The translations under genes were made by a program, and so were the position numbers. Under the pieces are notes generated by a model. That model was not told the origin of the DNA, did no database searches, and was given only the letters and a program-made list of their open reading frames with translations. Positions 13,449 to 50,455 of a stretch of DNA of 64,000 bases are shown here, piece by piece (position 1 is the first letter of the stretch; the number at the start of each line of letters is the position of its first letter). The DNA comes from Clostridiales bacterium (GTDB taxonomy: Bacteria; Bacillota; Clostridia; Oscillospirales; CAG-272): positions 1 through 64,000 of the forward strand of contig JAAZAV010000034.1 in NCBI GenBank assembly GCA_012514145.1, in the 5' to 3' direction.

Positions 13449-13540
13449 TATAATGTCACATGGCAAATAACGCTTTATCCGGTACCGGCTGCCGGGTAGA
13501 CGTAAAAATAACATTCAGAGAGCCGGAGAAACGGAGTATC

Positions 13541-14545
13541 ATGGCTAAAGTAAAAGTTGGCTTTATTGGCTGCGGCGGAAGAGCCGGTGCGCATTTCCAG
13601 AAGCTTGTAACCTTCAAGGAGGACGTTGAACTTGTAGGTTACGCCGATGTTATTCTTGCCAGAGCGGAGAATTTCCGCAACAAAGCCGGCGAGGGCAAGG
13701 CTTACACCTGCTACAAGCAGATGCTCGACGAGACCAAGCCGGACGCTGTCGTTATCGCCGTTGAACCCTGCGCACACGGTGCGATCGAGCTTGCCGTTGT
13801 TGAGCGCAACATCCACTTCATAATTGAGAAGCCGATGGATCTCGACATCTGCGCTGCAGAGAACATCAGCAACCTCGTGGCTCAGAAGCGCATCATAACC
13901 AGCGTAGGTTTCCAGGACAGATATCAGGACATCACCGACAAGGCGGTTGAGCTGCTCGCAGGCCGCCGCATAGGTCTTGTAGAGGGCGCATGGGTAGGCG
14001 GCATCCCCGGTGTATGGTGGTGGAGAAAGCAGGAGACCTCAGGCGGTCAGATCATTGAGCAGAACATTCACCTGTTCGACCAGGTCCGCTACATGCTCGG
14101 CGAGCCTGTAAGCGTATACGCGGCGGGCGGCAAGGGCATCGTTCGCCCCGCAGAGCGCAATATGCCCGGCTACAACGTTCATGACTACTCCTCTGCCGTT
14201 ATAAAGATGGAAAGCGGAGTTGTTGTCAACCTTTTCACCGGCTGCTATGTAAAGGGTCCCTCAAAACAGAACGGGCTCACCTTCTACTGCGAGGACTGTG
14301 TAGTTGACTACGCGCTCCGCAGCAAGCTGACCTTCAGAGATAATCAGGGCAATGTTGAGACCTTCAACCATGTAGTCGACGGCAACATTGAGCAGACCTA
14401 CATTCTTGACCGTGTCTTTATCGACGCCATCAAATCCGGCGACACCTCCAAGATCCGCAGCCCCTACAGCGATGCTCTCAAGTCGCTCAAGCTCTGCTTC
14501 GCTGCTCAGAAATCCATCGAGACCGGCGAAGTCATCATGCTGTAA
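13541..14545 (+). CDS. Gfo/Idh/MocA-family oxidoreductase (module 1)
   Basis: MAKVKVGFIGCGGRAGAHFQK Rossmann motif, FIIEKPMDLD. Start at 13541 (codon 28 of the tracked ORF). Confidence 0.88.
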   Translation: MAKVKVGFIGCGGRAGAHFQKLVTFKEDVELVGYADVILARAENFRNKAGEGKAYTCYKQMLDETKPDAVVIAVEPCAHGAIELAVVERNIHFIIEKPMDLDICAAENISNLVAQKRIITSVGFQDRYQDITDKAVELLAGRRIGLVEGAWVGGIPGVWWWRKQETSGGQIIEQNIHLFDQVRYMLGEPVSVYAAGGKGIVRPAERNMPGYNVHDYSSAVIKMESGVVVNLFTGCYVKGPSKQNGLTFYCEDCVVDYALRSKLTFRDNQGNVETFNHVVDGNIEQTYILDRVFIDAIKSGDTSKIRSPYSDALKSLKLCFAAQKSIETGEVIML

Positions 14546-14548
14546 TCG

Positions 14549-14594
14549 GACGGACAGTCATTAAGTCTAAAGACGGACAGTCATTAAGTCTAAA
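14549..14594. repeat. Perfect 23-bp tandem duplication
   Basis: GACGGACAGTCATTAAGTCTAAA at 14549-14571 and again at 14572-14594. Confidence 0.95.
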
Positions 14595-14607
14595 ATTGTC
14601 AATTAAG

Positions 14608-14645
14608 CGCACAAGCGGTCCTCGTGACCGCTTTGTGTGTATTTT
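14608..14645 (+). terminator. Intergenic hairpin (terminator or attenuator) within the module
   Basis: GCACAAGCGGTC-CTCGT-GACCGCTTTGTGTG followed by TATTTT. Confidence 0.55.
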
Positions 14646-14675
14646 AACGAATTTAAAAGAAAGGATACAGATTAC

Positions 14676-15467
14676 ATGGTAAAACTTTCCGCATGCATTG
14701 AGATGATCTTCAACAATCTTCCCTTCTGCGAGCGCATGACCGCCGCGAAGGCAGCCGGACTGAATGCTGTTGAGTTCTGGGGCTGGACGGGCAAGGATCT
14801 GCCTGCCATAAAAGAGACCGCCGAGAAGAACGGTCTTGCCATCGCCGCATTCTGCGTGAGCGGCGCCGGTTCCGCCCATGCCGACGAGTTCAACGCCAAG
14901 CGCCTGCTTGACAGAACCGGCATCGACGCTTTCAAGAAGGTCACCGAGGAGTCAATCGAGAAGGCGAAGTTCCTCGACTGCCAGACTCTCATCGTTACCG
15001 TGGGTCAGGAGCGCAATGACATAACCCGCTTTGAGCAGCACACCAATATTGTGCTCGCTCTCCGCGCCGTGGCGCCGTTGCTGCGTGACTCGGGCGTTAC
15101 TATGGTGGTAGAGCCGCTGAACACCCTGGTTAATCACCGTGGCTACTATCTCGCTTCGGGCTATGAGGCATTCTCCATAATCGAAGAAGTCGGCTGCCCC
15201 AACGTGAAGCTTCTTTATGATGTATACCATCAGCAGATTTCCGACGGCAATGTTATAGACAACATCACGAAGCACATCGATCTTATCGGGCACTTCCATA
15301 TCGCCGACGTTCCCGGCAGACATGAGCCGGGCACGGGTGAGCTAAACTACCGCAACATCTTCAAGGCTATCGACGCTGCCGGCTACAAGCGATATGTCGG
15401 TATGGAGTATCATCCCTCTATCGACCACGCCGAGACGGTACGCAGCACTCTCGCCCTGACGAAATAA
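14676..15467 (+). CDS. Hydroxypyruvate isomerase-like / sugar phosphate isomerase-epimerase TIM barrel (module 1)
   Basis: MVKLSACIEMIFNNLPFCERMTAAKAAGLNAVEFWGW, TMVVEPLNT, VKLLYDVYHQQISDGN, GHFHIADVPGRHEPGTGELNY. Start at codon 14 of the tracked ORF. Confidence 0.88.
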   Translation: MVKLSACIEMIFNNLPFCERMTAAKAAGLNAVEFWGWTGKDLPAIKETAEKNGLAIAAFCVSGAGSAHADEFNAKRLLDRTGIDAFKKVTEESIEKAKFLDCQTLIVTVGQERNDITRFEQHTNIVLALRAVAPLLRDSGVTMVVEPLNTLVNHRGYYLASGYEAFSIIEEVGCPNVKLLYDVYHQQISDGNVIDNITKHIDLIGHFHIADVPGRHEPGTGELNYRNIFKAIDAAGYKRYVGMEYHPSIDHAETVRSTLALTK

Positions 15468-22328: not shown

Positions 22329-23837
22329 TTAGCCCATCGCTTTGAAGGCTTCGATGAACAATGCCAGCTTTTCCTCTGCAGCCGGACTTGCGGAGGCGTA
22401 CAATGACGCGAAATCCTTTGTTTTCTTTTCCATCAGGGTGCGCATCACCGTACCGAAATTGTTCAGGCTCGATGAGTAGACATAAGCCAGGTCGGTGGTG
22501 GGAGACGCATGGATCATGTCGACTATCTGGCCCGAGATGTCGTCGCGGATGTATTTTGTCTTGAGGGCGACCTCGTAATATACCGGGGTCACGGTGCGGT
22601 AGTTCTCGGCACAGGATGCCTCAAGCGCGGCGCACACTGTATCCAATTGACCGCAGGTCACAGGAACCATCAGCATACAGACACTGTTGTGCACCAGCGC
22701 GCCGTAGTTTTCGATTGTCTCGTCCAGCTTGGGATAGGGTATTATGCCGTAATCTGTCTCCATATCCCGGAAGAACACCGCCGAATAGAAGTAGCCGAAC
22801 ATAAAGGTCATCTCGCCGGGTATGAACTTGGCGGGTATCTTTATACGCAGCGAATCCTGAGTGGCGGGATAGAGAAAGGCGCCTTCGTTCTCATAGAATA
22901 GCGAGTAGAGCTTTTCGCTGAAACTCACCGTCTTTTCGTTGTTTGCCGAGATGTAGGGTATGCCGTCCTTATCCCGGGAGGTCAGGCGTATGCCCGAGTC
23001 GAACACCATGTGGTCGGTAGTACTGGCGGTCACCACGCCCACGCCGTATTGATCGCCCTCGTCGCGGGTGCCGTCGCCGTTGAGGTCGGCGTAGCACTTC
23101 TTGACATAGCCCGACAGTTCATCAATAGTCCATGCACCGTCAAGCACCTTGCCGTATAGCACTTCATCGGTCTCGCTGCCGGATATCTTCTCAAACTGAT
23201 CCTTGTTGAAATACATGCAGCTCATGTATGAGAGCATCGACAGTGAAATGTCGCCCAGCAGGAAGAAACGGTGGTTGCCGATCATCATCTCGTCCATGTA
23301 GGCGTTCGCCCACCAGGGCTGCTCCCAGTCGAGATATTTCGCGTCGATAAGATCTACAAACAGCGACTCGGTCACCAGCGGAGCCAGTGCCGACTGCGTG
23401 GAGTCGATAATATCATAGGCATCGTTGCCTGCAAGCACGTTTTCGCGTATCGATGCCGCCATTTTATTGAATACATCTTTTTTAATCTCGAATGAGATGT
23501 TAAGCCGTTCCTCAACCGAACGGATGCGCTCATACTGAGCCGTGACGACTATATCGCCGGTATCCTCGGTTGTCCAGTTTATGGCGTCCGCGTCGCCGCC
23601 GTGACTGTCGGTATAGGTCACCTTCAGCTTCGCGCCGTCGAAGTCAAGTTCGGGCAGGCTGTCCTTGGTGTCCTCACGGGCGGTTTCGGCGGGTTCGGTC
23701 TCAATAGTCTCAACTGCGGAGGTTTCGGCGGCGGTGTCCGACACCCCGGTATCACCACCGTCACCACCGCAGGAGGCTAATATAAGCGGGAAGCTGAGTA
23801 TTGACAGAGCAAGCAGAATTGCGACAGCTTTTTTCAT
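22329..23837 (-). CDS. Extracellular solute-binding lipoprotein (SBP paralog 2)
   Basis: MKKAVAILLALSILSFPLILASC lipobox; GNDAYDIIDST, WEQPWWANAYMDEM, DLNGDGTRDEGDQYG, DYGIIPYPKLDETIENY. Confidence 0.85.
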   Translation of the reverse strand: MKKAVAILLALSILSFPLILASCGGDGGDTGVSDTAAETSAVETIETEPAETAREDTKDSLPELDFDGAKLKVTYTDSHGGDADAINWTTEDTGDIVVTAQYERIRSVEERLNISFEIKKDVFNKMAASIRENVLAGNDAYDIIDSTQSALAPLVTESLFVDLIDAKYLDWEQPWWANAYMDEMMIGNHRFFLLGDISLSMLSYMSCMYFNKDQFEKISGSETDEVLYGKVLDGAWTIDELSGYVKKCYADLNGDGTRDEGDQYGVGVVTASTTDHMVFDSGIRLTSRDKDGIPYISANNEKTVSFSEKLYSLFYENEGAFLYPATQDSLRIKIPAKFIPGEMTFMFGYFYSAVFFRDMETDYGIIPYPKLDETIENYGALVHNSVCMLMVPVTCGQLDTVCAALEASCAENYRTVTPVYYEVALKTKYIRDDISGQIVDMIHASPTTDLAYVYSSSLNNFGTVMRTLMEKKTKDFASLYASASPAAEEKLALFIEAFKAMG

Positions 23838-23948
23838 AATATCCCCCATAAGACACTTCTGTTTATCGTAATCTTGCTCGAAAAGCCCGAAATAATCGGA
23901 AGTACACGGTTGTCATTTGTTATCGTTGACGTCTGCTGATGACCTGTT

Positions 23949-25670
23949 TTACGGATTTACTGTTTTCCAGCTTCCTGCCGGAATGGTTTTGCCGTCGGCT
24001 TCAAAGCCGGTGGCGGTGCGGTTTACGTAAATCCTTGTGCCGTCCGAATAGGTAACTCTGACAACGCCCTTTGCCACGATGTCGTGGCGCTCCATGAAGC
24101 AGTACTGCAGACGGCAACGCTCCTTATACTCGTCGTATACCCGTCCCACGCAGTCCACACCGTGAGCCAGTTCGGCAAAATCGGCGCAGGTTAAATCTGC
24201 CTCGCCCATCCAGTTGCCCCGCTTGCCGGTGGGGTCGTCCACGAAGCGCGAGTAGTAGTAGAATGAGGGTCTGCCGTTGAACTCCGCCACCTCGAGATAA
24301 ACTTCCGGCTCTTTGAGAGAGGCGTTAACGGTGTCGGAAGAGGGGTTTGAGGTGATGATACCGTTGTAAACCAGCTGCCATATAGGCACATATTCGTCGG
24401 TCAGCGGGCTCTTTTTGGTACCCGCAAAGACCGTGTAAAGACCGTAGTCCAGGTCGCCGCTCATATGGTCGAAGCAGCCCTCGGAGGATATTCCGCCTAT
24501 CTTCTCCGCCGCATCGCGCATGATCTCACGGGTATGCTTCACCCATTCGGTTCTTGTAAGCGGATGCTCCGGGTCGAAGCAGCGGCGGGCGGGAACGGTG
24601 CTTATCACGTCGATATAATGAGTGCCGCGGAATCCCAGGTCACGCAGGTCGTCGTGGGTCTTTAAGTATATCGGCTTGGCTGCCAGCGGGCAGGTGTTGT
24701 ACATCATGCCGCCGCTCCAGGAGCCGCCGCGCTGGGGCGAACCGTCGGAGTTCTTTATAGTGTAGTCCTCGCTGAAACAGTCGGCTATCCGGTAGGCATC
24801 GGTGGCATTGGTATGGCAGACCAGAGCGTAGTCCATTGATTTGGCTTTGGCGATAAGGGCGCGAAGTCCCTCCTCGCCGCCCAGTGCCGGCTCAACCGGC
24901 AGCGCCTGAGGCCAGCGCCCGTCATGACCGCGGATGTTCCAGCCCACAAGACAGAACTCGGCTTTCTCGATGCCACGCGCCTTGAAGGCGTCCATTATTT
25001 CGCCCACGCGCTTGAAGTCCACCGCCACATGCATGGGAGGCTCGTTCTCAACGGTCTGTTCCTCGACCGGTGTGGGAACCGGCTTCCAGCCGCAGCGGAT
25101 ACGGACATAAACCGACTCGGCGGTGTATTTAAGTATCTCTCCCGCCCTCTCGGCGATAGGCACACAGCCGTCAGACAGGCGATATTTGCGGTACTCACGG
25201 GCTATGCCCGAATAATCGGCGTCCGCGCCCTCCAGCAGATGGTATTTAACCGCCATGTCCTCGTCGGGTATTACGCAGTCGGTCATAAATCGGGCAAAAA
25301 CCGTGTATTTGCCATCCTTCACGCGGATGACGCCCTGCATGTCGTATTTCATGCTCACCGCGTAGGCGCAGAAGCAGACTCTCGGTGTCTTTGCGCCGAA
25401 CATGGGCATGATGAAGCCCAGTCCCGTCTCGCAGTCCTCGTGTCCTTTGAAGTATGTCAGAGTGTTGCGGGAGCTGACGATGTAGCCGGCTTCACCCTCG
25501 GATGCGGTGAAGTAGTCCGGCATAAGGTCGACATATTTGAATTTCTCGGTGACCGATGAGGCGGCTATGACCGCGGTCGTCACATTGCCATCCGCTGTCA
25601 GCTTTACTTCAAGCTCGGCTCTGCTTCCGTCGGGGCGTATACCGTATGCGTATGCGCATTCGTGTGCCAT
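23949..25670 (-). CDS. Putative glycoside-hydrolase-like TIM-barrel protein (DUF5696-like)
   Basis: MHVAVDFKRVGEIMDAFKARGIEKAEFCLVGWNIRGHDGRWPQ, GTHYIDVISTVPARRCFDPEHPLTRTEW, GGISSEGCFDHM. ATG at 25670 immediately follows the upstream TAG stop. Confidence 0.5.
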   Translation of the reverse strand: MAHECAYAYGIRPDGSRAELEVKLTADGNVTTAVIAASSVTEKFKYVDLMPDYFTASEGEAGYIVSSRNTLTYFKGHEDCETGLGFIMPMFGAKTPRVCFCAYAVSMKYDMQGVIRVKDGKYTVFARFMTDCVIPDEDMAVKYHLLEGADADYSGIAREYRKYRLSDGCVPIAERAGEILKYTAESVYVRIRCGWKPVPTPVEEQTVENEPPMHVAVDFKRVGEIMDAFKARGIEKAEFCLVGWNIRGHDGRWPQALPVEPALGGEEGLRALIAKAKSMDYALVCHTNATDAYRIADCFSEDYTIKNSDGSPQRGGSWSGGMMYNTCPLAAKPIYLKTHDDLRDLGFRGTHYIDVISTVPARRCFDPEHPLTRTEWVKHTREIMRDAAEKIGGISSEGCFDHMSGDLDYGLYTVFAGTKKSPLTDEYVPIWQLVYNGIITSNPSSDTVNASLKEPEVYLEVAEFNGRPSFYYYSRFVDDPTGKRGNWMGEADLTCADFAELAHGVDCVGRVYDEYKERCRLQYCFMERHDIVAKGVVRVTYSDGTRIYVNRTATGFEADGKTIPAGSWKTVNP

Positions 25671-25671
25671 A

Positions 25672-26655
25672 CTACTTCCTCTCATCGCCGATAACATCGA
25701 AGTCCGAAATGTCGAACTTCCATACCGGTCTGCGTCTGAATTTCTGCTTGAAGCTGCGTTTCAGCTTGCCCTGCTCCTCAAGGTGCACATAGCATGCCGT
25801 GTCGCAGGCTCTTCCGCAAATGGATGTGACATAGCTGTGCCGTATCGGCGGGTAGAAATAAATCTTCCTCAGAAGATCGCGCGCCCTCTCGGGGGTTATC
25901 TCCGCCTCGCCGGCGATGAGTTCCAGGCGATCTTTCTCGCTGAAGAAGTCGTCGGGACGCATGAAGGGATTCTTCACGCCCGCACCGCCTTTGTAGTATA
26001 CGGCACAGCGCCAGCTGTCGGTCATGCCCTTTTCGTCGATGCAGTGACCCGGGCAGGCTTTCACGCACTCGCCGCAGTTGTCACAGAGGTGAGGCTCGGA
26101 AACGGGGTCGGGCTCCAATTCCGCGTCGGTTATAACGAATATAATGCGCTGCAGCGGGCCGAAATCGTCGGTGAGCAGCTGACCGTGGAAGGACTTCTCG
26201 CCGATTCCGCACTTGACGGCCGAATCGATGAAGTCGAGCTGCGGTTCCTTGTCGAGGCCACGGACGATGTCGCCGGGCTGCATCTCGGGGTTGGTTATAT
26301 CCGAATTCTCGTTGATAATAAGGCGCTGTCTCTTCTGGGGCAGAGCCTTGAAGCCCTCCTCCTCCAGAAGCTGCGCCACACGGAGTGCCCCTGAAGGCAT
26401 CATGACCTCTTCGAGATTCTCCACCGACATTGTAGTATACTGATAGTAGGTAGTTCCCTCCTCAATCCCGCGCAGATAGCCGCGCAGTATGCGGAAGGCG
26501 AGACAGATAACCGTCTTTGCCTGCGGGAATATTGCGAACAGCGGATCCTGTTTGTCAAAGCGGGATGCCGGGGCGAAACCGACGAGATCGGCGGCGCAGT
26601 CAACGGCGGTTTTTATGACAGCGTTTTTCAGTTCTTTCATTGTCATATGCGTCAT
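25672..26655 (-). CDS. QueG/reductive-dehalogenase-like 4Fe-4S protein (paralog A)
   Basis: GIGEKSFHGQLLTDDFGPLQRIIFVITDAELEPD and CDNCGECVKACPGHCI, plus C-terminal SICGRACDTACYVHLEEQGKL. ATGA overlap with the upstream gene sets the start at 26655. Confidence 0.75.
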   Translation of the reverse strand: MTHMTMKELKNAVIKTAVDCAADLVGFAPASRFDKQDPLFAIFPQAKTVICLAFRILRGYLRGIEEGTTYYQYTTMSVENLEEVMMPSGALRVAQLLEEEGFKALPQKRQRLIINENSDITNPEMQPGDIVRGLDKEPQLDFIDSAVKCGIGEKSFHGQLLTDDFGPLQRIIFVITDAELEPDPVSEPHLCDNCGECVKACPGHCIDEKGMTDSWRCAVYYKGGAGVKNPFMRPDDFFSEKDRLELIAGEAEITPERARDLLRKIYFYPPIRHSYVTSICGRACDTACYVHLEEQGKLKRSFKQKFRRRPVWKFDISDFDVIGDERK

Positions 26656-27584
26656 ATGCGTCCACTCTCCTTCAGATGTTTTCTGCATGCGACATCACAG
26701 GCCTTTCCGCAGAGGCAGGGGGAATAGCCATAGTTTATCTTTGGCAGGAACTTAAGCTCCGGATAAATAGCCCGGGCACTTTCGGCGTTGAAACGGTATT
26801 CGCCGTTGAGAATCGCTTCACGGTTGGGATTGTCCTTGAGGAAGTCGTCCTTCATGAAAGGATTGGAGCGGTGCGCGCCCTTGTAGTACACCGAACACTG
26901 CCAGGTGTCAAGCCCTTCGTCGGATATGGCGTTTCCCGGGCATGCCGTTATGCACTTGCCGCAGTTGTCGCAGAGTCCGCCCTCAAATTCCGGATCGCAC
27001 TCCAGCGGGCAGTCGGTTATTATAAACGCCCAGCGTATATATGGTCCGTATTTTGGAGAAAGGATACGCCCCGACTTGCCCACCTCGCCCAGACCGCAGA
27101 CCTTTACGGCGCGACCGAAATCGATGATAACATCGGGAACGGGCTTGCCCTCCGCCACCGGCACGGCGTGAATCAGCTCGTAGGTGTCGATAACCTCGGG
27201 ATTGGTGGACTTGTCGCCCTTGATTTTCAGGTTGGAAATCATGCGCTGGGTACAGGCGTCCCAGCCGTTATTCTCGATAATCGCCGCCAGCTTGAAGAGC
27301 AGTATCTCGGCTAACTCCTCATCGATATGTTTGACGCCCACGGTGGAGTAGTTGTAGCTCTGCCGCCCCTCGCTCATGGCGTCGTAAAATGCGGAGGGAA
27401 CCGCTATGCCGAGACCGATTATACACTTCGCCTTGGGGAGAATCTGCTTCGGGTCGCGCTGAGGATGCTCTCCCTCAAAGCCGGCGATGTCACCGATGCC
27501 GCAGACGGACGCGCCGAAACGCAGCGCCGCCGCCTTTATCTCGGCAGCCGTTATCGTCTTTCTCTCACTAAGATTCACGCTCAT
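26652..27584 (-). CDS. QueG/reductive-dehalogenase-like 4Fe-4S protein (paralog B)
   Basis: VCGLGEVGKSGRILSPKYGPYIRWAFIITDCPLECD and CDNCGKCITACPGNAI, plus CLCGKACDVACRKHLKESGRI. ATGA overlap with the upstream gene. Confidence 0.78.
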   Translation of the reverse strand: MSVNLSERKTITAAEIKAAALRFGASVCGIGDIAGFEGEHPQRDPKQILPKAKCIIGLGIAVPSAFYDAMSEGRQSYNYSTVGVKHIDEELAEILLFKLAAIIENNGWDACTQRMISNLKIKGDKSTNPEVIDTYELIHAVPVAEGKPVPDVIIDFGRAVKVCGLGEVGKSGRILSPKYGPYIRWAFIITDCPLECDPEFEGGLCDNCGKCITACPGNAISDEGLDTWQCSVYYKGAHRSNPFMKDDFLKDNPNREAILNGEYRFNAESARAIYPELKFLPKINYGYSPCLCGKACDVACRKHLKESGRI

Positions 27585-28660
27585 CTGTCAAGCCTCCATG
27601 CCTTCTTTGTACGGAGCGGCTCATTGAAGCGGTTCTCGAGACATCCGCCCTTCTTTTCAAGCATGCTGACACAGGCGCGGATACATCCGCCGCATTTTGC
27701 CATGTTGTAGCCGACCCAGCTGGGGAAGTACTTCTGCAGCGCCGAGTAGACCTTCAAAATATCCTGCTCATTGCCGCGGTGTTCCTCGGGGTGCTCAAGC
27801 AGGTCGAGATCGCCGTTTTCGTTGGCGTCGAACACTTCCTTTGGTACAAACGGATTGTAGTAGCGGCCCGCGTGGGTGTAGAAGGCGTAGCACTTCCACA
27901 TATCGATGTCAGCCCACTCCATAACCTTATCCTCAATCTTGACCGTTACCTTTTTGCTCTTGTCTGTGGGTATGCAGCCGCCGGGGCACTCGCGCACGCA
28001 CGCCATACAATGGCGGCACAGCGGCTCGCCCGAATACATCTCGTCGTATTCAAGTTTGGCGTCGGTGAAGATGAACGCCAGACGCTGAAGCGGTCCGAAC
28101 TGGGGGGTGAGCAGCATCTTGCTCCAGCCTATCTCGCCCAAACCGCAGATAACGGCGGCAATTCTGAACTGGAACTGCAGATCGGGCGCCACGCCGCCCT
28201 CACGGGCGGGACGGGTGAACTGTACGGTGCGGTGGTGAGCCGTAGCCTTGCGGGCATGCTCGCTCACCTCGATCTGCTCTTCGGGGGAAAGTGTGTTGCC
28301 CGGGCTGCCGTCCATGTCCGAGACAACTCCCCTGGCGCCGGTGTTGCGGTATACAAAGGCCTCGTATCCCTCGTCCTCGATCACCTTGCCTACACGGTAG
28401 AGAACCGCCGGTGCGAAAATCTCGTTGATCCCGCCGTATGCCATAGACGGGTACTGGTAGAACTGCGTCCCCTCCTCGATTCCGCGCTGTACTCCGCGGG
28501 GTATGCGGAAGGCTAAACCGATCACGCTCTTGGCTTCGGGGAAGAGGAACTGTGGGTTCATCTCCTTCGGCGCGCCCGAGAAGCGTGACATGGGTCCGAT
28601 ACCGCAGAGATCCGCACCGGCATCCAGTGCCGCCTGCTTTATCATTGCGCTTGTCAGCAT
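27581..28660 (-). CDS. QueG/reductive-dehalogenase-like 4Fe-4S protein (paralog C)
   Basis: VICGLGEIGWSKMLLTPQFGPLQRLAFIFTDAKLEYD and CRHCMACVRECPGGCIP, plus AKCGGCIRACVSMLEKKGGC. Start MLTSAMIKQ at codon 28 of the tracked ORF, downstream of AAAGGAG. Confidence 0.78.
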   Translation of the reverse strand: MLTSAMIKQAALDAGADLCGIGPMSRFSGAPKEMNPQFLFPEAKSVIGLAFRIPRGVQRGIEEGTQFYQYPSMAYGGINEIFAPAVLYRVGKVIEDEGYEAFVYRNTGARGVVSDMDGSPGNTLSPEEQIEVSEHARKATAHHRTVQFTRPAREGGVAPDLQFQFRIAAVICGLGEIGWSKMLLTPQFGPLQRLAFIFTDAKLEYDEMYSGEPLCRHCMACVRECPGGCIPTDKSKKVTVKIEDKVMEWADIDMWKCYAFYTHAGRYYNPFVPKEVFDANENGDLDLLEHPEEHRGNEQDILKVYSALQKYFPSWVGYNMAKCGGCIRACVSMLEKKGGCLENRFNEPLRTKKAWRLDR

Positions 28661-28844
28661 GCTTATACTCCTTTTCCAAAAAATCGCTGTAACATCTTGC
28701 ATTATATTGTAATAACACGTTATATAATCATGATGAAACAAAGATTAACTTTTAATTTACAAATATTGTCATATTGTCCGCCATGATGCAGAACCACACT
28801 GGATGATGCGGGCTAATATAACACAATGCGTAGCTGTGTTACGG

Positions 28845-31019
28845 TCAGATGAGCTTCTTTGTCTCGCCGGCGGCGAAGGTGAGCAGCCGGAATCCGGTCT
28901 TTGTCACGAAGGTAAGCTCGCCGCTCTTGTCCGCCGTCACACTGAGGGCTGTAACCTCGCCGTTCTTCCAGTCGCAGTCAACCGAGTAGCCGCCGCGGGC
29001 GCGGAAGCCACGGAAGGAACCGCCTGAGAGGTACGAAGGCAGAGCGGGAAGCACCTTCAGCTCGCCGTTCTGGCTCTGGAGAAGCATCTCACTGATTGCC
29101 GCCGCGCCGCCGAAGTTGCCGTCGATCTGGAACGGCGGGTGTGAATCGAAGAGATTGTCTTTCGTGGACTTGGTAAAGAGCAATGTAAGGCTCTCTCCCG
29201 CCTGTCTGCCGTCGCCGAGACGGGCGAAGAGACAGGTGAGCCAGGCGCGGCTCCAACCGGTGTGTCCGCCGCCATGAGCAAGTCTGCGCTCGAGTGTGCG
29301 GCGCACGCCTTCGAACAGCTCGGGGGTGTTTTCGTTTATGGCGCTGTCGGGATATACCGCGAACATATGGGATATGTGGCGGTGACCCGGTTCGGGCTCG
29401 TCATAGTCCTCAAGCCACTCCATGAGCTGACCGTGCTTGCCGATTTTCAGCGGCGGCAGCTTGGAAAGGGCGGTTTTGGCTTCGCCCGCCATGTCGGGAT
29501 TGATACCCAGCAGTTCCTCGCACTCGATGTATAGACGCAGCAGACCGCCGATTATCTCCACATCCATTGTGGGCGACAGGCAGAGATAAGCCGCCTTGCC
29601 GTCGCAGAAGTAGCGGTTCTCGGGAGAAGTGGAGGGGCCGGAGAGCAGCATACCGTTATGCTCGAACATGTAGTCGAGGAAAAAGCGCACCGACTCGGAT
29701 ATATAGCTGTATGCGGTCTCCCGCAGATAATCTGTGTCGAGGGAGTAGAGATATCGCTCCCAGATGTGGAAGCAGAGCCAGGCGCCGCCGAGAGGCCAGA
29801 GACCCCAAAGCCCGTCCGCCGGCGCGGTGAAGCCGTATATGTCGCTGAGGTGATGCAGCACTGTGCCGCGGCAGTCGTAGTTGACCCTGGCGGTATGTTT
29901 GCCCGACTCCAGCAGGTAGTTGTTCATGTAGTCGAAAAGTGCCGTGCAGCATTCACCCAAAGCAGCTGTCTCTGCCTGCCAGTAGTTCATCTGCAGGTTG
30001 ATGTTTGTATGGTAGTCGGCGTTCCAGGGAGCGTCGTAGCGCTCGTTCCATACACCCTGCAGGTTGGCAGGCAGTGAGCCGGGGCGGCTGGAACTGATAA
30101 GCAGGTACTTGCCGAAGCGCCAGTAGAGTTCCGCCAGTCCGGGATCCTCCTCACCCTTCTCGCGCAGGGCGGCGAGGCGTTCGTCCACCGGCATGGCGGT
30201 CTTGCATTCACAGCAGTCAAACTTCAGGTCTGAAAGTCCCATCAGCGCCGTAAAGTCGGCGGTATGGCGTTCTTTAAGCTCACACCAGCAGAGCTTATCG
30301 GGGAGTTTGGGCAGAACGCCGTCGATGTCGGAGCGTATCTGTATGTATAATTCAATATATTCTGCGCCGGAGATATTCAGCGAGCCGGCTCCCGGAGCAA
30401 TGACACCGTCGGTGACCGCCGCTATTCTCGAGGTAAACTCATGCTCGCCGGTGGCGGTCCTGCCTACATAGGTAATTCCGCACTCCGAATAGTCCACCGA
30501 CACCGTGTATTTCCGGGTGTAATCGATCGAGGCGTTCAGCTTGGCGCCCTCCGAGGTATAGCGGACGGCGATAAGCCTGTCGGGATATGATGCGAAATAT
30601 TCGCGCTTATACGATACTCCGCCCCGGGTGTAGGTAATCTCGGCGAGACCGTTTGTCATGTCAATCGCCCGCCGGTAGTCGGCGCAGCTGTCTCCGCTGT
30701 GAAGGGCAACACGCAGCTCGCCCGCTGTCTCGTAGGATTTTACGCGCTTGAAGGAATCGGCGAGAGCGCTCTCGGCGTAATTGTCGGCTTCTGCCGCCCT
30801 CCCGGCAAGCAGCAGCTCACGAACCTTGCGCAGTTCTTTCATATAGCCGGGAGTCACCGCGTCGAACTTCTCGCCGGCCCATATCTTCTCCTCGTTGAGC
30901 TGGATTACGTCGGTTCCCACGCCGCCCCATAAAGAAGCGCCCATATATCCGCAGCCGATAGGCGAAGTGTCCTCCCACTCAACTGCGGGTCGGTTCAGAA
31001 ACAGAATATCATTTCTCAT
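28845..31019 (-). CDS. GH95 alpha-L-fucosidase-like (copy 1)
   Basis: [96 protein letters not shown]. Confidence 0.93.
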
Positions 31020-31637: not shown

Positions 31638-33755
31638 CTATTCAACCCGTTCGATAATCATGTCCTGCCATTCGCGGCTCATGGTGACAAAGCGCGCGCT
31701 CCATCCCGCCACACGCACCGCGAGGGTCGTGTATTTCTCGGGATGGCGCTGTGCGTCGCGGAGCGTAGCGGCGTCCACCGTGTCTATCTGCATGAAGAAA
31801 CCGCCCAGGTCGCAGAAGCCGCGGATCAGCCCGCTCAGCGCCGCCACACCCGGCTCGCCCTCCAGAGCAGAGGGCGAGATTCCGATGTCCAGCGCCGAAC
31901 CGGTGGTAAGCAGGCTCAGGTCCGGCTTGCAGGCTGAATGTATAACGGCGGTAGCGCCGTTGCGTATGCTGCCCGGCGTCGGCGACCAGTTGCTCGCCAG
32001 CACATCGCCTTTCCTGTGACCGTGGGGCGAGGCCAGCCGCTGCGGCGCCCAGTCTATCTGACGCCCGAAGGTGCTGATTCCGCCCGGGAACCAGATCGGG
32101 CATGAGTCGTCACGCTCTCCGCAGCATTTAGCAAAATCCTCCACCAGCCGCACCGCCAGAGAGTCGCATTCGTCGCTGTCGTTGCCGAAGTAGACAAAAT
32201 CGTCAAGCGCATGGCGGCGCAGCTCCTCATAGCCCTCCCAGTTGGCGGCAAGCGCTTTCTGCAGCTCGGCTAAAGATACACGCTTGTCCTCATATACGAG
32301 ACGCTTTATCGCGTAAAGGCTGTTTACGATATCCGGCAGACCGCCTATGTGTGGCGAAACCACGACATAACGCGTTCCGCCCTCGTAGTAGGAGCGGGCG
32401 TTCTCTATGCAGTCGTCCACAAAGAGCGACACCACTGTACAGGGATTGCTCGGTTTCCAGCTGCCGTCCTCATTTAACCTGCCGCCTGTGGTGCCCCGCT
32501 TTATCTGCTCAACCTGAGCGCCAAGGTCGGCAATGTATGCCGCGTACAGCTCCTCAAAGCTGCCGAAGTCGCGGCTGCCGCTGTAGTTATCAAGCGTTAT
32601 GTGCTGTAAAATTGCCAGCCCGTCAAAGGGCACATAGCCGAACCAGGTCTTGCCGGGCACCTGTACCTCCCAGCAGCCGTCGTTGGCGAAGTTTCGCGCC
32701 TCGGACAGCTCATAGCCCCAGTCGGTCATGGCTTTCAGTATAAGATCCTCATTGTATATCGCCACATTGCCGCCGCCGTGTCGCATCGCCTCGGCGCAGC
32801 GGGTGATAAGATACGGGTCGGTTTTCGTGTTTATTCTGACCGTGGTGGGGAAATCGCTTATTCCGAGTTCCTCAAGAATGTCAAGAACCAGATAAGTTAC
32901 CTCGTTTGCAACCTCGGCGCCGTCCGCATCGATGCCCGCAAGAACCAGATTCTGATAATGCTGCGCATCGCCGCTGCGGGTCGCGCGGCCGTTTATCCAC
33001 TCACAGCCCTTGATAAAGAAGTGGGAGAATATTTCCCGCGCTTCGTCTATGGTCAGTGCTCCGGCGGCTAAATCTTTCTTAAGATAATCACCCAGCAGCC
33101 AGTCTATGCGCCCTATCCCCGGCCAGTTGCCGCAGAGACGGGTGAAGGCAAAGACAAACCACATGCTCTGCACGGCTTCGTAAAAGTTTCGAGCCCCCTC
33201 GAAGGGCACCCTGCAGAGGTTTGAATACACACGCTCCATGCCCGGCATATCCTTCAGCGCCTCGAGATATCTGCCGTGCCAGATGCGCATGGCGTCGATG
33301 CAGATAAGGCAGCTTTCGAGGAATGCCCGCTCGCGGGATTCCGTGTGCCTTTTAAGTGATTCATGCACCCGGCGTTCGATGCCGTTCATGCCGACCGCCA
33401 GAACTTCGTCAAAGCGGATGGTGAGATGGCTGACCGAACCGAACCAGCCGTGAGCCGCCCCGTATTCTTTTGCGGGCACGATATGGCTGATGGCGTCGCC
33501 AAGGGTGGCACTGCCCGAGAGATACTCACCCGGCACTATCCGCAGAGGCGATTTATTCGCTATCTCGAGTATGCAGGCATTGTACTTGTCAAGCCCGGAC
33601 ATTTCGCTGTAACCGGGCACTTCATCCATGCGCACATTCGGAGTATCAAGAGTCTCGAGCCCGTATATGCCCGCCTGCGAATCGGCGGCGAATTTTCGTG
33701 TCGCCTCGGAAAGGCGCACAGGACGCGGCGTCGAGCTTGCTGTATAGAATATCAT
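31638..33755 (-). CDS. Glycyl radical enzyme (PFL-like family), function unknown
   Basis: Active-site loop FANDGCWEVQVPGKTW (GCxE; Cys codon 32673-32675) and C-terminal radical loop TLAVRVAGWSARFVTMSREWQDMIIERVE (Gly codon 31704-31706). Confidence 0.88.
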   Translation of the reverse strand: MIFYTASSTPRPVRLSEATRKFAADSQAGIYGLETLDTPNVRMDEVPGYSEMSGLDKYNACILEIANKSPLRIVPGEYLSGSATLGDAISHIVPAKEYGAAHGWFGSVSHLTIRFDEVLAVGMNGIERRVHESLKRHTESRERAFLESCLICIDAMRIWHGRYLEALKDMPGMERVYSNLCRVPFEGARNFYEAVQSMWFVFAFTRLCGNWPGIGRIDWLLGDYLKKDLAAGALTIDEAREIFSHFFIKGCEWINGRATRSGDAQHYQNLVLAGIDADGAEVANEVTYLVLDILEELGISDFPTTVRINTKTDPYLITRCAEAMRHGGGNVAIYNEDLILKAMTDWGYELSEARNFANDGCWEVQVPGKTWFGYVPFDGLAILQHITLDNYSGSRDFGSFEELYAAYIADLGAQVEQIKRGTTGGRLNEDGSWKPSNPCTVVSLFVDDCIENARSYYEGGTRYVVVSPHIGGLPDIVNSLYAIKRLVYEDKRVSLAELQKALAANWEGYEELRRHALDDFVYFGNDSDECDSLAVRLVEDFAKCCGERDDSCPIWFPGGISTFGRQIDWAPQRLASPHGHRKGDVLASNWSPTPGSIRNGATAVIHSACKPDLSLLTTGSALDIGISPSALEGEPGVAALSGLIRGFCDLGGFFMQIDTVDAATLRDAQRHPEKYTTLAVRVAGWSARFVTMSREWQDMIIERVE

Positions 33756-33931
33756 TTCAGTCGATCCTTTCATATTGTCAAGGATTTGCCGGTATAGGCT
33801 TATTGCAAACCGGCACCATATACATTGTACCCTGCGGCGCAGGTTCTGTCAATCGCCATTTTCACTTTTTGACCTGAATGCAGACCTGTGCGCCGATATA
33901 AATATGCTTTTCAGTTTACGGAATTTAACAA

Positions 33932-37808: not shown

Positions 37809-38918
37809 TCAGAGGTTCGGCAGAACGAGAGCCTTGGATACCGACAGCTCCTCGATCTCCTGTGCGGTGACCTCGCGTCCCAGTTTCTGGGAGAAGTAGA
37901 TGCCTTCCTGGACGCGCTGAGTTTCAAGACCGATCTTTGCGGTGGGCAGCAGCTCGCATTTGCCCAGCAGAGAGTGGATCCAGTGCTGCTGAGAGTTGTC
38001 GTAGTGGGCGGTATCGCTGTAAACCGTGTGGTCGAGATAGTCGCGGACGTTCATATCAACGGTGGTGTCGATCTCCATGTCGTGCAGCCGCGAGTGGATG
38101 GTGAGAGGGCTGAGGGTGATACCCGCCTCGGAGCCGTATATCGCGGAACCCGGGAAGGGTCTGCCGTGAATCGCCCAGGACTCAAGAATGTCCATCGACA
38201 GACCGTTCTCGTAGGTGGCGAGTCCGACGCCCAGTTCCTCGACGTTGAAGCCGGAAATCTCACGGCGTCCCTCGTCCATGGCGATCTCGGCGTAGGTGTG
38301 GCCGCAGACGCGCTCAAGCTTCGGAATACCGGTGAGGTAAATCAGCTGCGAGATATGATAAACGCCCATGTCAAAGAGCGCGCCGCCTCCCGCGGTGGTG
38401 GTGTTTACGAACTCCTTGCGGGCATATCCGTCAACATAGGGCCTGCCGCGGCGGCGGAAGCCGTAGGAGCGCATGTGGTAGATATTGCCGAGGTCGCCGG
38501 CATCGATGTAGCGTTTTGCGCACTTGGTCTCCTTTGAATAGAGCATTGACAGCTGAATATGCAGCTTTTTGCCTGTCTCCTCCATGGTCTTATACATCTC
38601 GCGGGCATCGAAGAAGGTGCCTGCCATGGGCTTCTCGCAGTAGCAGTCCTTGCCGGCTCTCATGACCGCTATGGATGCCGGCGAGTGCATGTTGTTGTGC
38701 AGACAGACGTCAACCGCCTGAATGTCGTCCTCTTTCAGCAGTTTGCCTATGTGGGTGAAGCGGCGGTCTATGCCGTAGCGGTCGCCGATTTCGTTGAGCC
38801 TTGCCTCATCGATGTCGCAGATGGCGACGACCTCAGCCTCGGGGATGTTATTGTAGGTCTGAATGTGGCTCTCGCCTATGATGCCGACGCCGATAATCGC
38901 AACTCTGATCTTTTCCAT
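37809..38918 (-). CDS. Gfo/Idh/MocA-family oxidoreductase (module 2)
   Basis: IRVAIIGVGIIGESHIQTYNNIPEAEVVAICDIDEARL, CYCEKPMAGT, GGGALFDMGVYHISQLIYLTG. Confidence 0.9.
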   Translation of the reverse strand: MEKIRVAIIGVGIIGESHIQTYNNIPEAEVVAICDIDEARLNEIGDRYGIDRRFTHIGKLLKEDDIQAVDVCLHNNMHSPASIAVMRAGKDCYCEKPMAGTFFDAREMYKTMEETGKKLHIQLSMLYSKETKCAKRYIDAGDLGNIYHMRSYGFRRRGRPYVDGYARKEFVNTTTAGGGALFDMGVYHISQLIYLTGIPKLERVCGHTYAEIAMDEGRREISGFNVEELGVGLATYENGLSMDILESWAIHGRPFPGSAIYGSEAGITLSPLTIHSRLHDMEIDTTVDMNVRDYLDHTVYSDTAHYDNSQQHWIHSLLGKCELLPTAKIGLETQRVQEGIYFSQKLGREVTAQEIEELSVSKALVLPNL

Positions 38919-38984
38919 ACTGTTATCTCCTTTTTAATGAATTTATTGTGGCTTCTTATGAGTGTCTTACTGTTTCTCTGTTCT

Positions 38985-39803
38985 TTATTTCATCGAGTAT
39001 ATTCTGCCGAAATAGTCGTCGCCTTCGATGCCCGCCTTAATCTCTGCGATGATGCCCCGGACGGTCGCCAGCTGCCATGCGGTGCGCTCGTATTCAAGCT
39101 GCCCCGAATGGTGCTCGACGCTGTAAGTGCCGTCATATCCGGCTGCCGCCAGACGCTCGAACACGCCCTTGGCGTACGGCACGGAACCTGCGTGCACATG
39201 GGTGTGCATGGCGTAGGATATGCAGAGCTCCTCGCCCTTCTCAATCTCGTCGAAGAAATTGCGGAAGTGGTAGAGATGTCCGTAGTTCGGGCAGTCAACG
39301 GCTTTCTTAACCTTTTCAAGGTACTCGGGCACGCGATCCCAGCCCCAGTGGTTCTCGGGACCTATCTTGATGCCGGAATCGGCGCAGGCGGCGCAGTATT
39401 CGCGGTAAGTATTGACGATGTATTCGAAAGCTTCCTCGGGCATTGTGTGTCCTTCGGTGCCGCCGAAGTCAACGCGTATCGACCTGGCGCCAAGCAGCTT
39501 TGCCGCCTCGATGTATTCGAACATCTTTTTCTTGTGTGCTGCCCGTTTGTCGGGGTCGTTCTCCCAAAGATGAGGCCCGTCTACGCAGAGGTTTGCCAAT
39601 CCCAGCTCATTACGATCAAGCTCCCGGCGTACCTTGCGTATGAAATCCTCGTCAAGGGTAGGCAGGAAGCCTGTCCAGATATCCGCCCAATTGGTGCGGT
39701 AGCGATATTTCAGCATATTAAGATAGCCGAAAATATCGATTTTACCCTCTCCCAGCAGACCGTGGAATGAGTAAGATGCAACGGAAATTTTCATGTCAGA
39801 CAT
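38985..39803 (-). CDS. Sugar phosphate isomerase/epimerase-like TIM barrel (module 2)
   Basis: MKISVASYSFHGLLGEGKIDIFGYLNMLKYRY, KIGPENHWGW, NYGHLYHFRNF; xylose-isomerase-like AP-endonuclease 2 fold. Confidence 0.85.
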   Translation of the reverse strand: MSDMKISVASYSFHGLLGEGKIDIFGYLNMLKYRYRTNWADIWTGFLPTLDEDFIRKVRRELDRNELGLANLCVDGPHLWENDPDKRAAHKKKMFEYIEAAKLLGARSIRVDFGGTEGHTMPEEAFEYIVNTYREYCAACADSGIKIGPENHWGWDRVPEYLEKVKKAVDCPNYGHLYHFRNFFDEIEKGEELCISYAMHTHVHAGSVPYAKGVFERLAAAGYDGTYSVEHHSGQLEYERTAWQLATVRGIIAEIKAGIEGDDYFGRIYSMK

Positions 39804-48558: not shown

Positions 48559-49422
48559 TTATCTGTCTTCGTTCAGCGTTTCTGCGGTGCGGCGGGCATA
48601 TGCGAGGAAATGCGGCATCAGCGGGTCGGGATATCTGCCGTAGACCAGCTCCAGAGAGAGCTTTCCTGTGTAATCTGCGTCGCGCAGCACCTTCATCTGC
48701 GCCGTCCAGTCGGTGTTGCCCAAGTATGGCAGCAGATGCTGATCTTTTGTCCGGTCGTTGTCGTGCACATGAGTGCAGACAAGCCGGTCGGCGACTTTTG
48801 CAAGCTCCATGAAATCGTTTGCGCCGAATGCCACATGGGCGTGTCCGAAATCCCAACATACGCCTACCTTGTAGCCGTTAAACAGCTCAAGGGTGGCAAG
48901 CAGCTCGTCAACCGTGGAACAGCAGCGGGAGCGCTCGCCCGGGCGGGTTTTATAGCCGTCCTCGAAAAGATTTTCGAACGCCGTTGTCACGCCAAGCGAG
49001 GAGGCGTAGTCCACCAGCGGGGTCATATACTCTTTTGTATAGGCAACGGCGTCCTCGGAGGTGTAGGGTTTGTCGCCGCATTTGTATTCGTCGGCGTGTA
49101 TAACGCAGTATTTCGCGCCCACCAGCGCAGTGGCGGTTATCATGTTCTTTATCAGCACCGCAAACTCGGCGGGATCGGCATTGCCGTAGCGTCCGAAGGG
49201 GGCGTGAGTCTGCTCCGCCGTCATGCCAAGGCTGTCAAGCTCCTCGCGCAGCCGTCTGCAGTCGTCCTCCCAGCCGGCGGTACCGGTGACGGGATTGATG
49301 TCGAGGTAACGGAAACCCGCGTCACGGCATAGTTTCACCGCCTCCGAAAGTGTGCGCTTTTCGGTGGTGCCGTATTTGTGGCAGGCGTAGTTTGCGTTAA
49401 TGGCAAGTGGGAATTTTTCCAT
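48559..49422 (-). CDS. Sugar phosphate isomerase/epimerase-like TIM barrel (module 3)
   Basis: MEKFPLAINANYACHKYG..., TAFENLFEDGYKTRP, KVGVCWDFGHAHVAFG, LVCTHVHDNDRTKDQHLLPYLGNTDW, KLSLELVYG. Start at codon 13 of the tracked ORF. Confidence 0.88.
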   Translation of the reverse strand: MEKFPLAINANYACHKYGTTEKRTLSEAVKLCRDAGFRYLDINPVTGTAGWEDDCRRLREELDSLGMTAEQTHAPFGRYGNADPAEFAVLIKNMITATALVGAKYCVIHADEYKCGDKPYTSEDAVAYTKEYMTPLVDYASSLGVTTAFENLFEDGYKTRPGERSRCCSTVDELLATLELFNGYKVGVCWDFGHAHVAFGANDFMELAKVADRLVCTHVHDNDRTKDQHLLPYLGNTDWTAQMKVLRDADYTGKLSLELVYGRYPDPLMPHFLAYARRTAETLNEDR

Positions 49423-50455
49423 TTCGTTTGTCCTCCCGGGACTGTCGGCGCACATCATAACCGCAGGCGGTCATGATGATGTCGTGCAGCTCCGCTTCAT
49501 ATTCCGGAGTATAGGGGTTGACCGCCTCGCCGCGGACATAGGAGGCGAAGTTTTTAAGCAGCCGGTCGTAGCGGCGCTCGGGCGCGAAATCTAACTTCTG
49601 CGATCGGTCGCGCCATGGGTCCTGTCTGCCGATGGTTATCTTCGCCTCGGGGATGTTGGTATTCACCCCGGGCCGGGGCACCTCCATGCGGGAGATATGC
49701 AGCGTGGCGTCATAGCCCGAGATTATGACCGAACGGCGGAGAGCGGCGCCCGGCTCCGATGCGCAGGCGCGGACATAGGACACGCCGTTGTCATAGCGGA
49801 ATGCCGCCATGCCCAGGTCTATGCTGCCCACATTGTCAAGCCCGGTGCTTACATTCAAGGGGATGATCTCCTTCGGCACGCCGCAGAAGGTCACTACCAG
49901 GTCAATCAGGTGGCAGCCTAAGTAGTAGAGCATACCGCCTTTGAAGCGCTTCAGCATCTCACGATAGCTTTTGCTGTCGCCGACGCCCATCTGACCCTCC
50001 ACCGAGAATATATGCCCGAAGGTGCCGTTTTTCACCAGTTCACGGGCATAGCGGATCGCGGCGTTCTCGCGGTACATGTAACCGAGTTCAAGCGGCAGAT
50101 TTTTCGAGGCGGCCAACTCGCACATGCGTCTGAACTGCCCCGCGTCCTCGCTTCCCGGTTTGTCCATGTATACGGGATAGCCGTATTCAAGAGCGCGTAT
50201 AGCGTTTTCAACCAGTTTGTGTTCGTCGGTCTCGATAATGAAGGCGTCGGGCTTCGCCGCCAGCGCCCCCTCCCAGGTGATGAACTCATAACCTGCGTAG
50301 GCGGGTCGGGTCATCATGTCCGGGATGCGGGATTCGTCCTCCTCCACTATGCCGATGACCTCATAGATATCGGTCAGACCTTTCAGCGCCTCGGCAATAT
50401 GCGCCGAATGCACCCATGTGCCCGTGCCGACCTGTACCACTCTCAGTTTATTCAT
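49397..50455 (-). CDS. Gfo/Idh/MocA-family oxidoreductase (module 3)
   Basis: LRVVQVGTGTWVHSAHIAEALKG, VYMDKPGSED, GGMLYYLGCHLIDLVVTFCG. Confidence 0.87.
   Translation of the reverse strand: MNKLRVVQVGTGTWVHSAHIAEALKGLTDIYEVIGIVEEDESRIPDMMTRPAYAGYEFITWEGALAAKPDAFIIETDEHKLVENAIRALEYGYPVYMDKPGSEDAGQFRRMCELAASKNLPLELGYMYRENAAIRYARELVKNGTFGHIFSVEGQMGVGDSKSYREMLKRFKGGMLYYLGCHLIDLVVTFCGVPKEIIPLNVSTGLDNVGSIDLGMAAFRYDNGVSYVRACASEPGAALRRSVIISGYDATLHISRMEVPRPGVNTNIPEAKITIGRQDPWRDRSQKLDFAPERRYDRLLKNFASYVRGEAVNPYTPEYEAELHDIIMTACGYDVRRQSREDKRNGKIPTCH

Follow-up and report, generated by a model that had tools for sequence, protein, structure and literature searches.

Three adjacent genes of a Clostridiales genome, here called A, B and C, encode paralogous proteins related to the epoxyqueuosine reductase QueG and to reductive dehalogenases (RDHs), and the real unit to which they belong has four parts, k0 and A-B-C. 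On an evenly balanced judgement, this unit is a probably cobamide-dependent reductase module acting in glycan catabolism, with A, B and C as cytosolic Fe-S proteins of their own QueG/RDH branch. No description of the k0-A-B-C module was found in the open-access literature searched (most subscription papers lay outside its scope), and as far as that literature extends the module is undescribed.

The window, i.e. the whole stretch of 64,000 nucleotides that was analysed, and the adjoining part of its contig carry the following features:

22329-23849, minus strand: lipoprotein of an SBP-like family, relatives of which adjoin most other RDH-like genes in the genome
23949-25670, minus strand: DUF5696 glycosidase-like protein without a signal peptide, starting one base past the stop codon of C
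25672-26655, minus strand: gene C, QueG/RDH-family protein, 327 aa
26652-27584, minus strand: gene B, QueG/RDH-family protein, 310 aa
27581-28660, minus strand: gene A, QueG/RDH-fold protein, 359 aa, two 4Fe-4S motifs
28661-28844, minus strand: 184-base gap 5' of A, containing the ribosome-binding site of A
28845-31019, minus strand: GH95 glycosidase 5' of A, in the place usually taken by k0 in most relatives
62826-64001, minus strand: RDH-like paralogue from the same superfamily branch, its start (64001) lying just past the window
64099-64959 (contig position, C28): further RDH-like gene, in tandem with the preceding one

Three minus-strand ORFs were found at the coordinates at which an earlier note on this DNA had placed three tandem genes. 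The ATGA overlaps that it claimed are present at 27581-27584 (A/B) and 26652-26655 (B/C), as is the single base separating the stop codon of C (TAG, 25672-25674) from the ATG of the GH-like ORF at 25670. Gene A starts with the ATG at 28660, preceded by aaaggag, while alternative starts are possible for C (ATG at 26646 or 26640). Long antisense reading frames covering the trio were dismissed as ORF-calling noise. A promoter-like match in the gap 5' of A was not above chance level, and a palindrome 5' of A, considered as a shared operator, was rejected after a pattern search of the window gave no match. The trio is flanked by GH95, GH2 and the solute-binding lipoprotein; the latter (22329-23849) gave no significant Pfam match, and is probably a substrate-binding protein.

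The three proteins are homologous from end to end, with C sharing 38% identity with A and 36% with B. RDH and QueG profiles match all three proteins with E values between 1e-7 and 3e-14: for TIGR02486 (RDH) the values are 5e-10 (C), 3e-14 (B) and 3e-10 (A), with somewhat weaker matches to TIGR00276 (QueG). The scores nevertheless lie far below the respective cut-offs, at 40-53 bits against 160 for TIGR02486 and 31-44 bits against 200 for TIGR00276. A profile match to the RDH structure 8q4h was obtained at 9e-18, and the solved structures matched by sequence were RDHs and QueG, besides ferredoxin-type matches. At the sequence level, the similarity within the trio and to RDH/QueG is far beyond chance.

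The segment GLGE...FGP..R..F..TD..LE.D and the motif CxxCxxCxxxCP, both pointed out previously, are kept in A, B and C. The second cysteine motif had been described as degenerate, but this had to be revised: eight cysteines are invariant in 46 of 46 aligned A, B and C homologues, namely C215, C218, C221 and C225, followed by C257, C323, C326 and C330 (A numbering). The second 4Fe-4S set is complete, being composed of a distant W-x-C cysteine and CX2-3CX3C, an arrangement resembling that of QueG, and the invariant cysteines rule out a degenerate second cluster. All three proteins start at the cobalamin domain, with neither a TAT signal nor a small RdhB-like anchor gene adjoining, in agreement with the earlier reading. 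They give no match to QueG_DUF1730 (PF08331) and are without the C-terminal extension of QueG. The catalytic Asp of QueG falls one column off the invariant Asp160 of A, and is not kept in C.

The position of the trio was analysed in a maximum-likelihood tree containing QueG of E. coli and other QueG proteins, three RDH references from plasmids, the trio and its paralogues from the window genome; some of the branches are long. QueG, including the product of a gene of the window genome on C13, was split from all other sequences at 100/100. The three RDH references formed their own clade (99/93) with the trio outside it, and the trio and the other paralogues of the genome made up the remaining group at 86/77. 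As judged from this tree, the trio is a branch separate from QueG and nearer to the RDHs. Each of A, B and C forms a clade at 100/100, with B and C as sisters (98/98), which indicates that the three parts of the trio have existed side by side for a long time. Recent tandem duplication is ruled out by these separate clades, which have orthologues in other phyla; the three copies are ancient orthologous groups and no local amplification.

An amplified true QueG, i.e. a tRNA epoxyqueuosine reductase, would account for the common core and the two 4Fe-4S motifs, and the window genome has QueA, while QueH was not found in it. This is still a very improbable explanation in view of the 100/100 split, the score of 31-44 of 200 bits, the absent QueG_DUF1730 match and the C13 gene, which passes the QueG_DUF1730 cut-off as the sole match of this kind in the genome and is therefore its natural QueG candidate. 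The expectation that the trio lies outside QueG and that a separate queG-like gene exists was thus borne out. The trio might also be a non-respiratory enzyme of RDH-like type that reductively dehalogenates natural organohalides, which would fit its nearer placement to RDHs than to QueG and the RDH profile outscoring the QueG profile. We consider this improbable, since the trio reaches only 40-53 bits against the cut-off of 160, the RDH references form a clade of their own, and we know of no RDH locus with three obligate paralogues together with a U32 protein and sugar genes.

The structure of A was predicted with AlphaFold2 from a 46-row alignment (mean pLDDT 83.8, pTM 0.85); it is the only modelled member of the trio, the fold being assigned to B and C by full-length homology. 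In VIA-align comparisons, the model matched QueG (5d6s) with Z 17.7 over 206 residues at 2.9 A, RDHs with Z 15-16, MMACHC with Z about 10 (8-10 for MMACHC/CblC and CblD), and nitroreductases with Z under 6. Foldseek agreed with this ranking. The prediction supports a cobalamin-binding fold of the QueG/RDH type in A, and so the structural comparison proposed in the earlier note came out in its favour, as did the phylogeny: the fold is present in the model, and the trio is not within QueG. Region 105-155 of A is a long loop with low pLDDT in places, which is nearly invariant among A orthologues. The fold might have been kept with a cofactor other than cobamide, the proteins then being flavin-binding or pure electron-transfer Fe-S proteins. 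The predicted fold of A is also related to flavin proteins, its core being related to nitroreductase-like folds (Z 5-6), and conservation is lower in B and C than in A. However, the QueG/RDH and MMACHC matches are far above those to nitroreductases and the GLG...FGP..R...TD segment is kept in A, B and C, and we give a cofactor of this kind little credence.

When 84,980 species genomes were scanned, 181 loci were identified, of which the best 80 were kept. These 80 are the top matches to the trio alignment, so that cases in which A, B or C has been lost are undercounted, and family matches were given priority in ORF choice when genes were counted. C was present in all 80, A in 78, B in 76 and k0 in 66. 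Among these best 80 of 181 loci, the 66 with k0 have the gene order k0-A-B-C, with frames overlapping or nearly touching (median gaps of -7 for k0-A and -4 for B-C). The hosts are mainly herbivore-gut Clostridia, but also Lentisphaerota, Kiritimatiellota and Opitutales. Most loci come from metagenome-assembled genomes (MAGs) and some phylum labels may reflect misbinning, but Oligosphaera ethanolica DSM 24202, whose A is 75% identical to that of the window, is an isolate; it has the trio at locus L125 and carries three copies of k0. Identity to the window proteins among the best 80 of 181 loci is 66-84% for A (nearly always at least 75%), mostly 54-65% for B (41-46% in a few) and 52-61% for C. 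Positions conserved to at least 97% number 198 of 359 in A (72 rows), 85 of 310 in B and 72 of 327 in C, making A the most conserved of the trio. About 18 loci also have a gene for a small cupin-like protein, situated between A and B or close by (for instance L055:4753-5118 and L099:4732-5079).

The fourth partner, k0, is a protein of about 336 aa encoded directly before A in 66 of the best 80 of 181 loci. It gave no Pfam match and no meaningful NCBIfam match. Its predicted structure (pLDDT 90.2) matched the U32 protein 5d88 with Z 18.9, the next fold scoring 12.5, and the three copies of the window genome score 12.6-17.8 bits with PF01136, below the cut-off of 22.4. Because of this fold match and the weak PF01136 matches, k0 is, as far as the model shows, a U32-fold protein. 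Four cysteines are invariant (C80, C188, C192 and C221; CX107CX3CX28C). Characterised U32 oxidases have the cluster motif CX6CX15CX3C (PMC11574389); this motif is not in k0, whose spacing differs, and hhalign gave no direct HMM link between k0 and a U32 protein of the genome.

Among 59 related genomes, the trio is present in six, and strong k0 matches occurred in exactly these six, with one other genome matching weakly. The probability of such co-occurrence by chance is 1 in 4.6 million, with the window genome excluded and kinship ignored. For ten trio loci without an adjacent k0, nine of the genomes have k0 elsewhere. The window genome is a case of this kind: its trio-type k0 is unlinked (C11:15465-16430) and falls inside the trio k0 clade. 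Two further k0 copies of this genome adjoin other RDH-like genes (on C59 and C69), a further and separate indication of joint function of the two families.

In most of the best 80 of 181 loci an AraC-family gene lies 5' of the module on the opposite strand. Directly 3' of C are GFO/IDH/MocA oxidoreductases (17 loci), DUF5696 (eight) and serine hydrolases (four), and the flanking sugar genes vary between loci. The order A-B-C-DUF5696 of the window is therefore one recurring arrangement, found as C-DUF5696 in eight of 80 relatives; the GH-like gene that had been joined to the trio does adjoin C here, but among relatives it is a frequent rather than a constant neighbour. The proposed sugar or glycan setting was supported by the recurrence of AraC, GFO/IDH/MocA and DUF5696 beside the module. 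This setting also bears on the possibility that k0 and the QueG-like trio jointly make an unusual modified nucleoside. Both parent families include RNA-modifying enzymes (QueG; U32 oxidases, PMC11574389), and A varies very little between phyla, as would be expected if its substrate were universal. The patchy distribution (6/59 relatives), the AraC regulators and sugar genes alongside, the missing QueG C-terminal extension and the several paralogues near solute-binding lipoproteins all speak against a role in RNA modification, which we regard as unlikely.

Beyond the trio, the window genome has about ten RDH-like genes, most adjoining lipoproteins of the SBP-like family. This lipoprotein family is expanded in the genome (22329-23849; loci L134, L136-L139, L148). 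Proteins of about 755 aa with two RDH-like domains per chain are encoded in the window genome (L140:5599-7878, C21) and in a relative (L147:5272-7527, G007). Upstream (5') of GH95 lies a gene for a 711-aa glycyl radical enzyme of unassigned subclass, with PFL-like and glycine-radical domains (31638-33773, minus strand); its best NCBIfam scores are far below every named cut-off, and no activase was noticed among its scanned neighbours. Three pairs of GFO/IDH/MocA and xylose-isomerase-like TIM barrel genes (13460-15467, 37809-39803 and 48559-50455) occur as in redox-assisted deglycosylation loci.

The only corrinoid activator RACo of the window genome (L136:7734-9557, contig C4) lies convergently beside an RDH-like gene. 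A corrinoid methyltransferase operon at this site was considered and found unsupported, the neighbours being GH28, NAT, LGT and M16 peptidases. The hosts feed on plant material in guts free of oxygen, and this, together with the placement of RACo, would favour corrinoid-dependent O-demethylation, with methylated plant sugars or aromatics as substrates, over reductive cleavage. RACo occurs at a single locus, however, and its real partner may be the single stand-alone corrinoid protein (B12-binding_2) of the genome; no methyltransferase was found in the trio operons, and we know of no methyl-group transfer at RDH-type cobamide sites. O-demethylation is thus quite unlikely. No cobalamin riboswitch was found near the trio. 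A full-length riboswitch match, below the gathering score, lies at C45:6399-6558 (L157), 5' of an operon for a transcobalamin-like lipoprotein, which we take from its sequence to be DUF4430-like; this makes corrinoid uptake by the organism probable.

For the cobamide-dependent reductase module, a cofactor, substrate, reaction and division of labour can be proposed as follows. A, B and C would each bind base-off cobamide and two 4Fe-4S clusters. By analogy with the superfamily, ferredoxin or flavodoxin would reduce the clusters, these would reduce the cobamide to Co(I), and Co(I) would then attack or reduce the substrate. A may be the main catalyst, because it is the most conserved protein and a long loop, itself conserved, covers its presumed active site; it would reductively cleave a C-O (or C-X) bond of a glycan-derived compound taken up by the cell. 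A second step or electron relay could fall to B and C, and a linked Fe-S step to k0, e.g. an O2-independent transfer of oxygen like that of U32 oxidases. The module would be switched on together with sugar-catabolic genes, and this co-regulation is a pointer to a glycan-derived substrate. Against the proposal stand the unlinked k0 in this genome, the absence of an electron-transfer gene from the trio operon, the variable flanks, the lack of a riboswitch at the trio and the Asp offset. More tentatively, k0-A-B-C could represent an anaerobic catabolic system of a new type: three cobamide Fe-S reductases would act jointly with a U32-type Fe-S enzyme to break a bond in some sugar compound of plant or host origin, one that lies outside all known anaerobic pathways. 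The system would then be a functionally distinct third branch of the QueG/RDH superfamily, horizontally spread among gut phyla.

To our knowledge, this cobalamin superfamily has two known functional kinds, dehalogenation and epoxyqueuosine reduction. The best 80 of 181 loci and the roughly ten extra paralogues in one genome represent a large further branch, whose four-protein unit is conserved between phyla and also occurs in a cultured bacterium. Identifying the substrate of this unit would bring to light an anaerobic and probably cobamide-dependent reaction by which glycans are degraded in the herbivore gut, and would give U32-like proteins a function outside RNA and quinone hydroxylation. 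In MAG annotation, such genes should not be labelled QueG or dehalogenase.

Among known systems, MMACHC/CblC and CblD share a B12-handling fold with A (Z 8-10), but unlike the trio they have no Fe-S clusters and a role in trafficking, MMACHC being a B12 chaperone. The U32 oxidases (UbiU/UbiV, RlhA, TrhP), of which RlhA and TrhP are RNA hydroxylases, resemble k0 in the TIM-barrel fold of 5d88 (Z 18.9) and four invariant cysteines; k0 differs in its PF01136 score below the cut-off, its CX107CX3CX28C spacing instead of CX6CX15CX3C, and its linkage to RDH-like genes. QueG (TIGR00276, PF08331) is, like the trio, cytosolic, with the cobalamin fold (Z 17.7), CX2CX2CX3CP and a second site of four cysteines, the first of which is distant, whereas the trio is set apart by the 100/100 split, the lack of a DUF1730 match and of a C-terminal extension, and its operons with sugar genes. 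The RDHs (PceA, NpRdhA; TIGR02486) are nearest in the tree and have in common with the trio the cobalamin fold (Z 15-16), two 4Fe-4S sites and the segment GLGE...FGP..R...TD. In contrast to them, the trio has no TAT signal or membrane anchor, scores 40-53 bits against 160, and consists of three co-encoded paralogues with a U32 partner in a setting of sugar genes.
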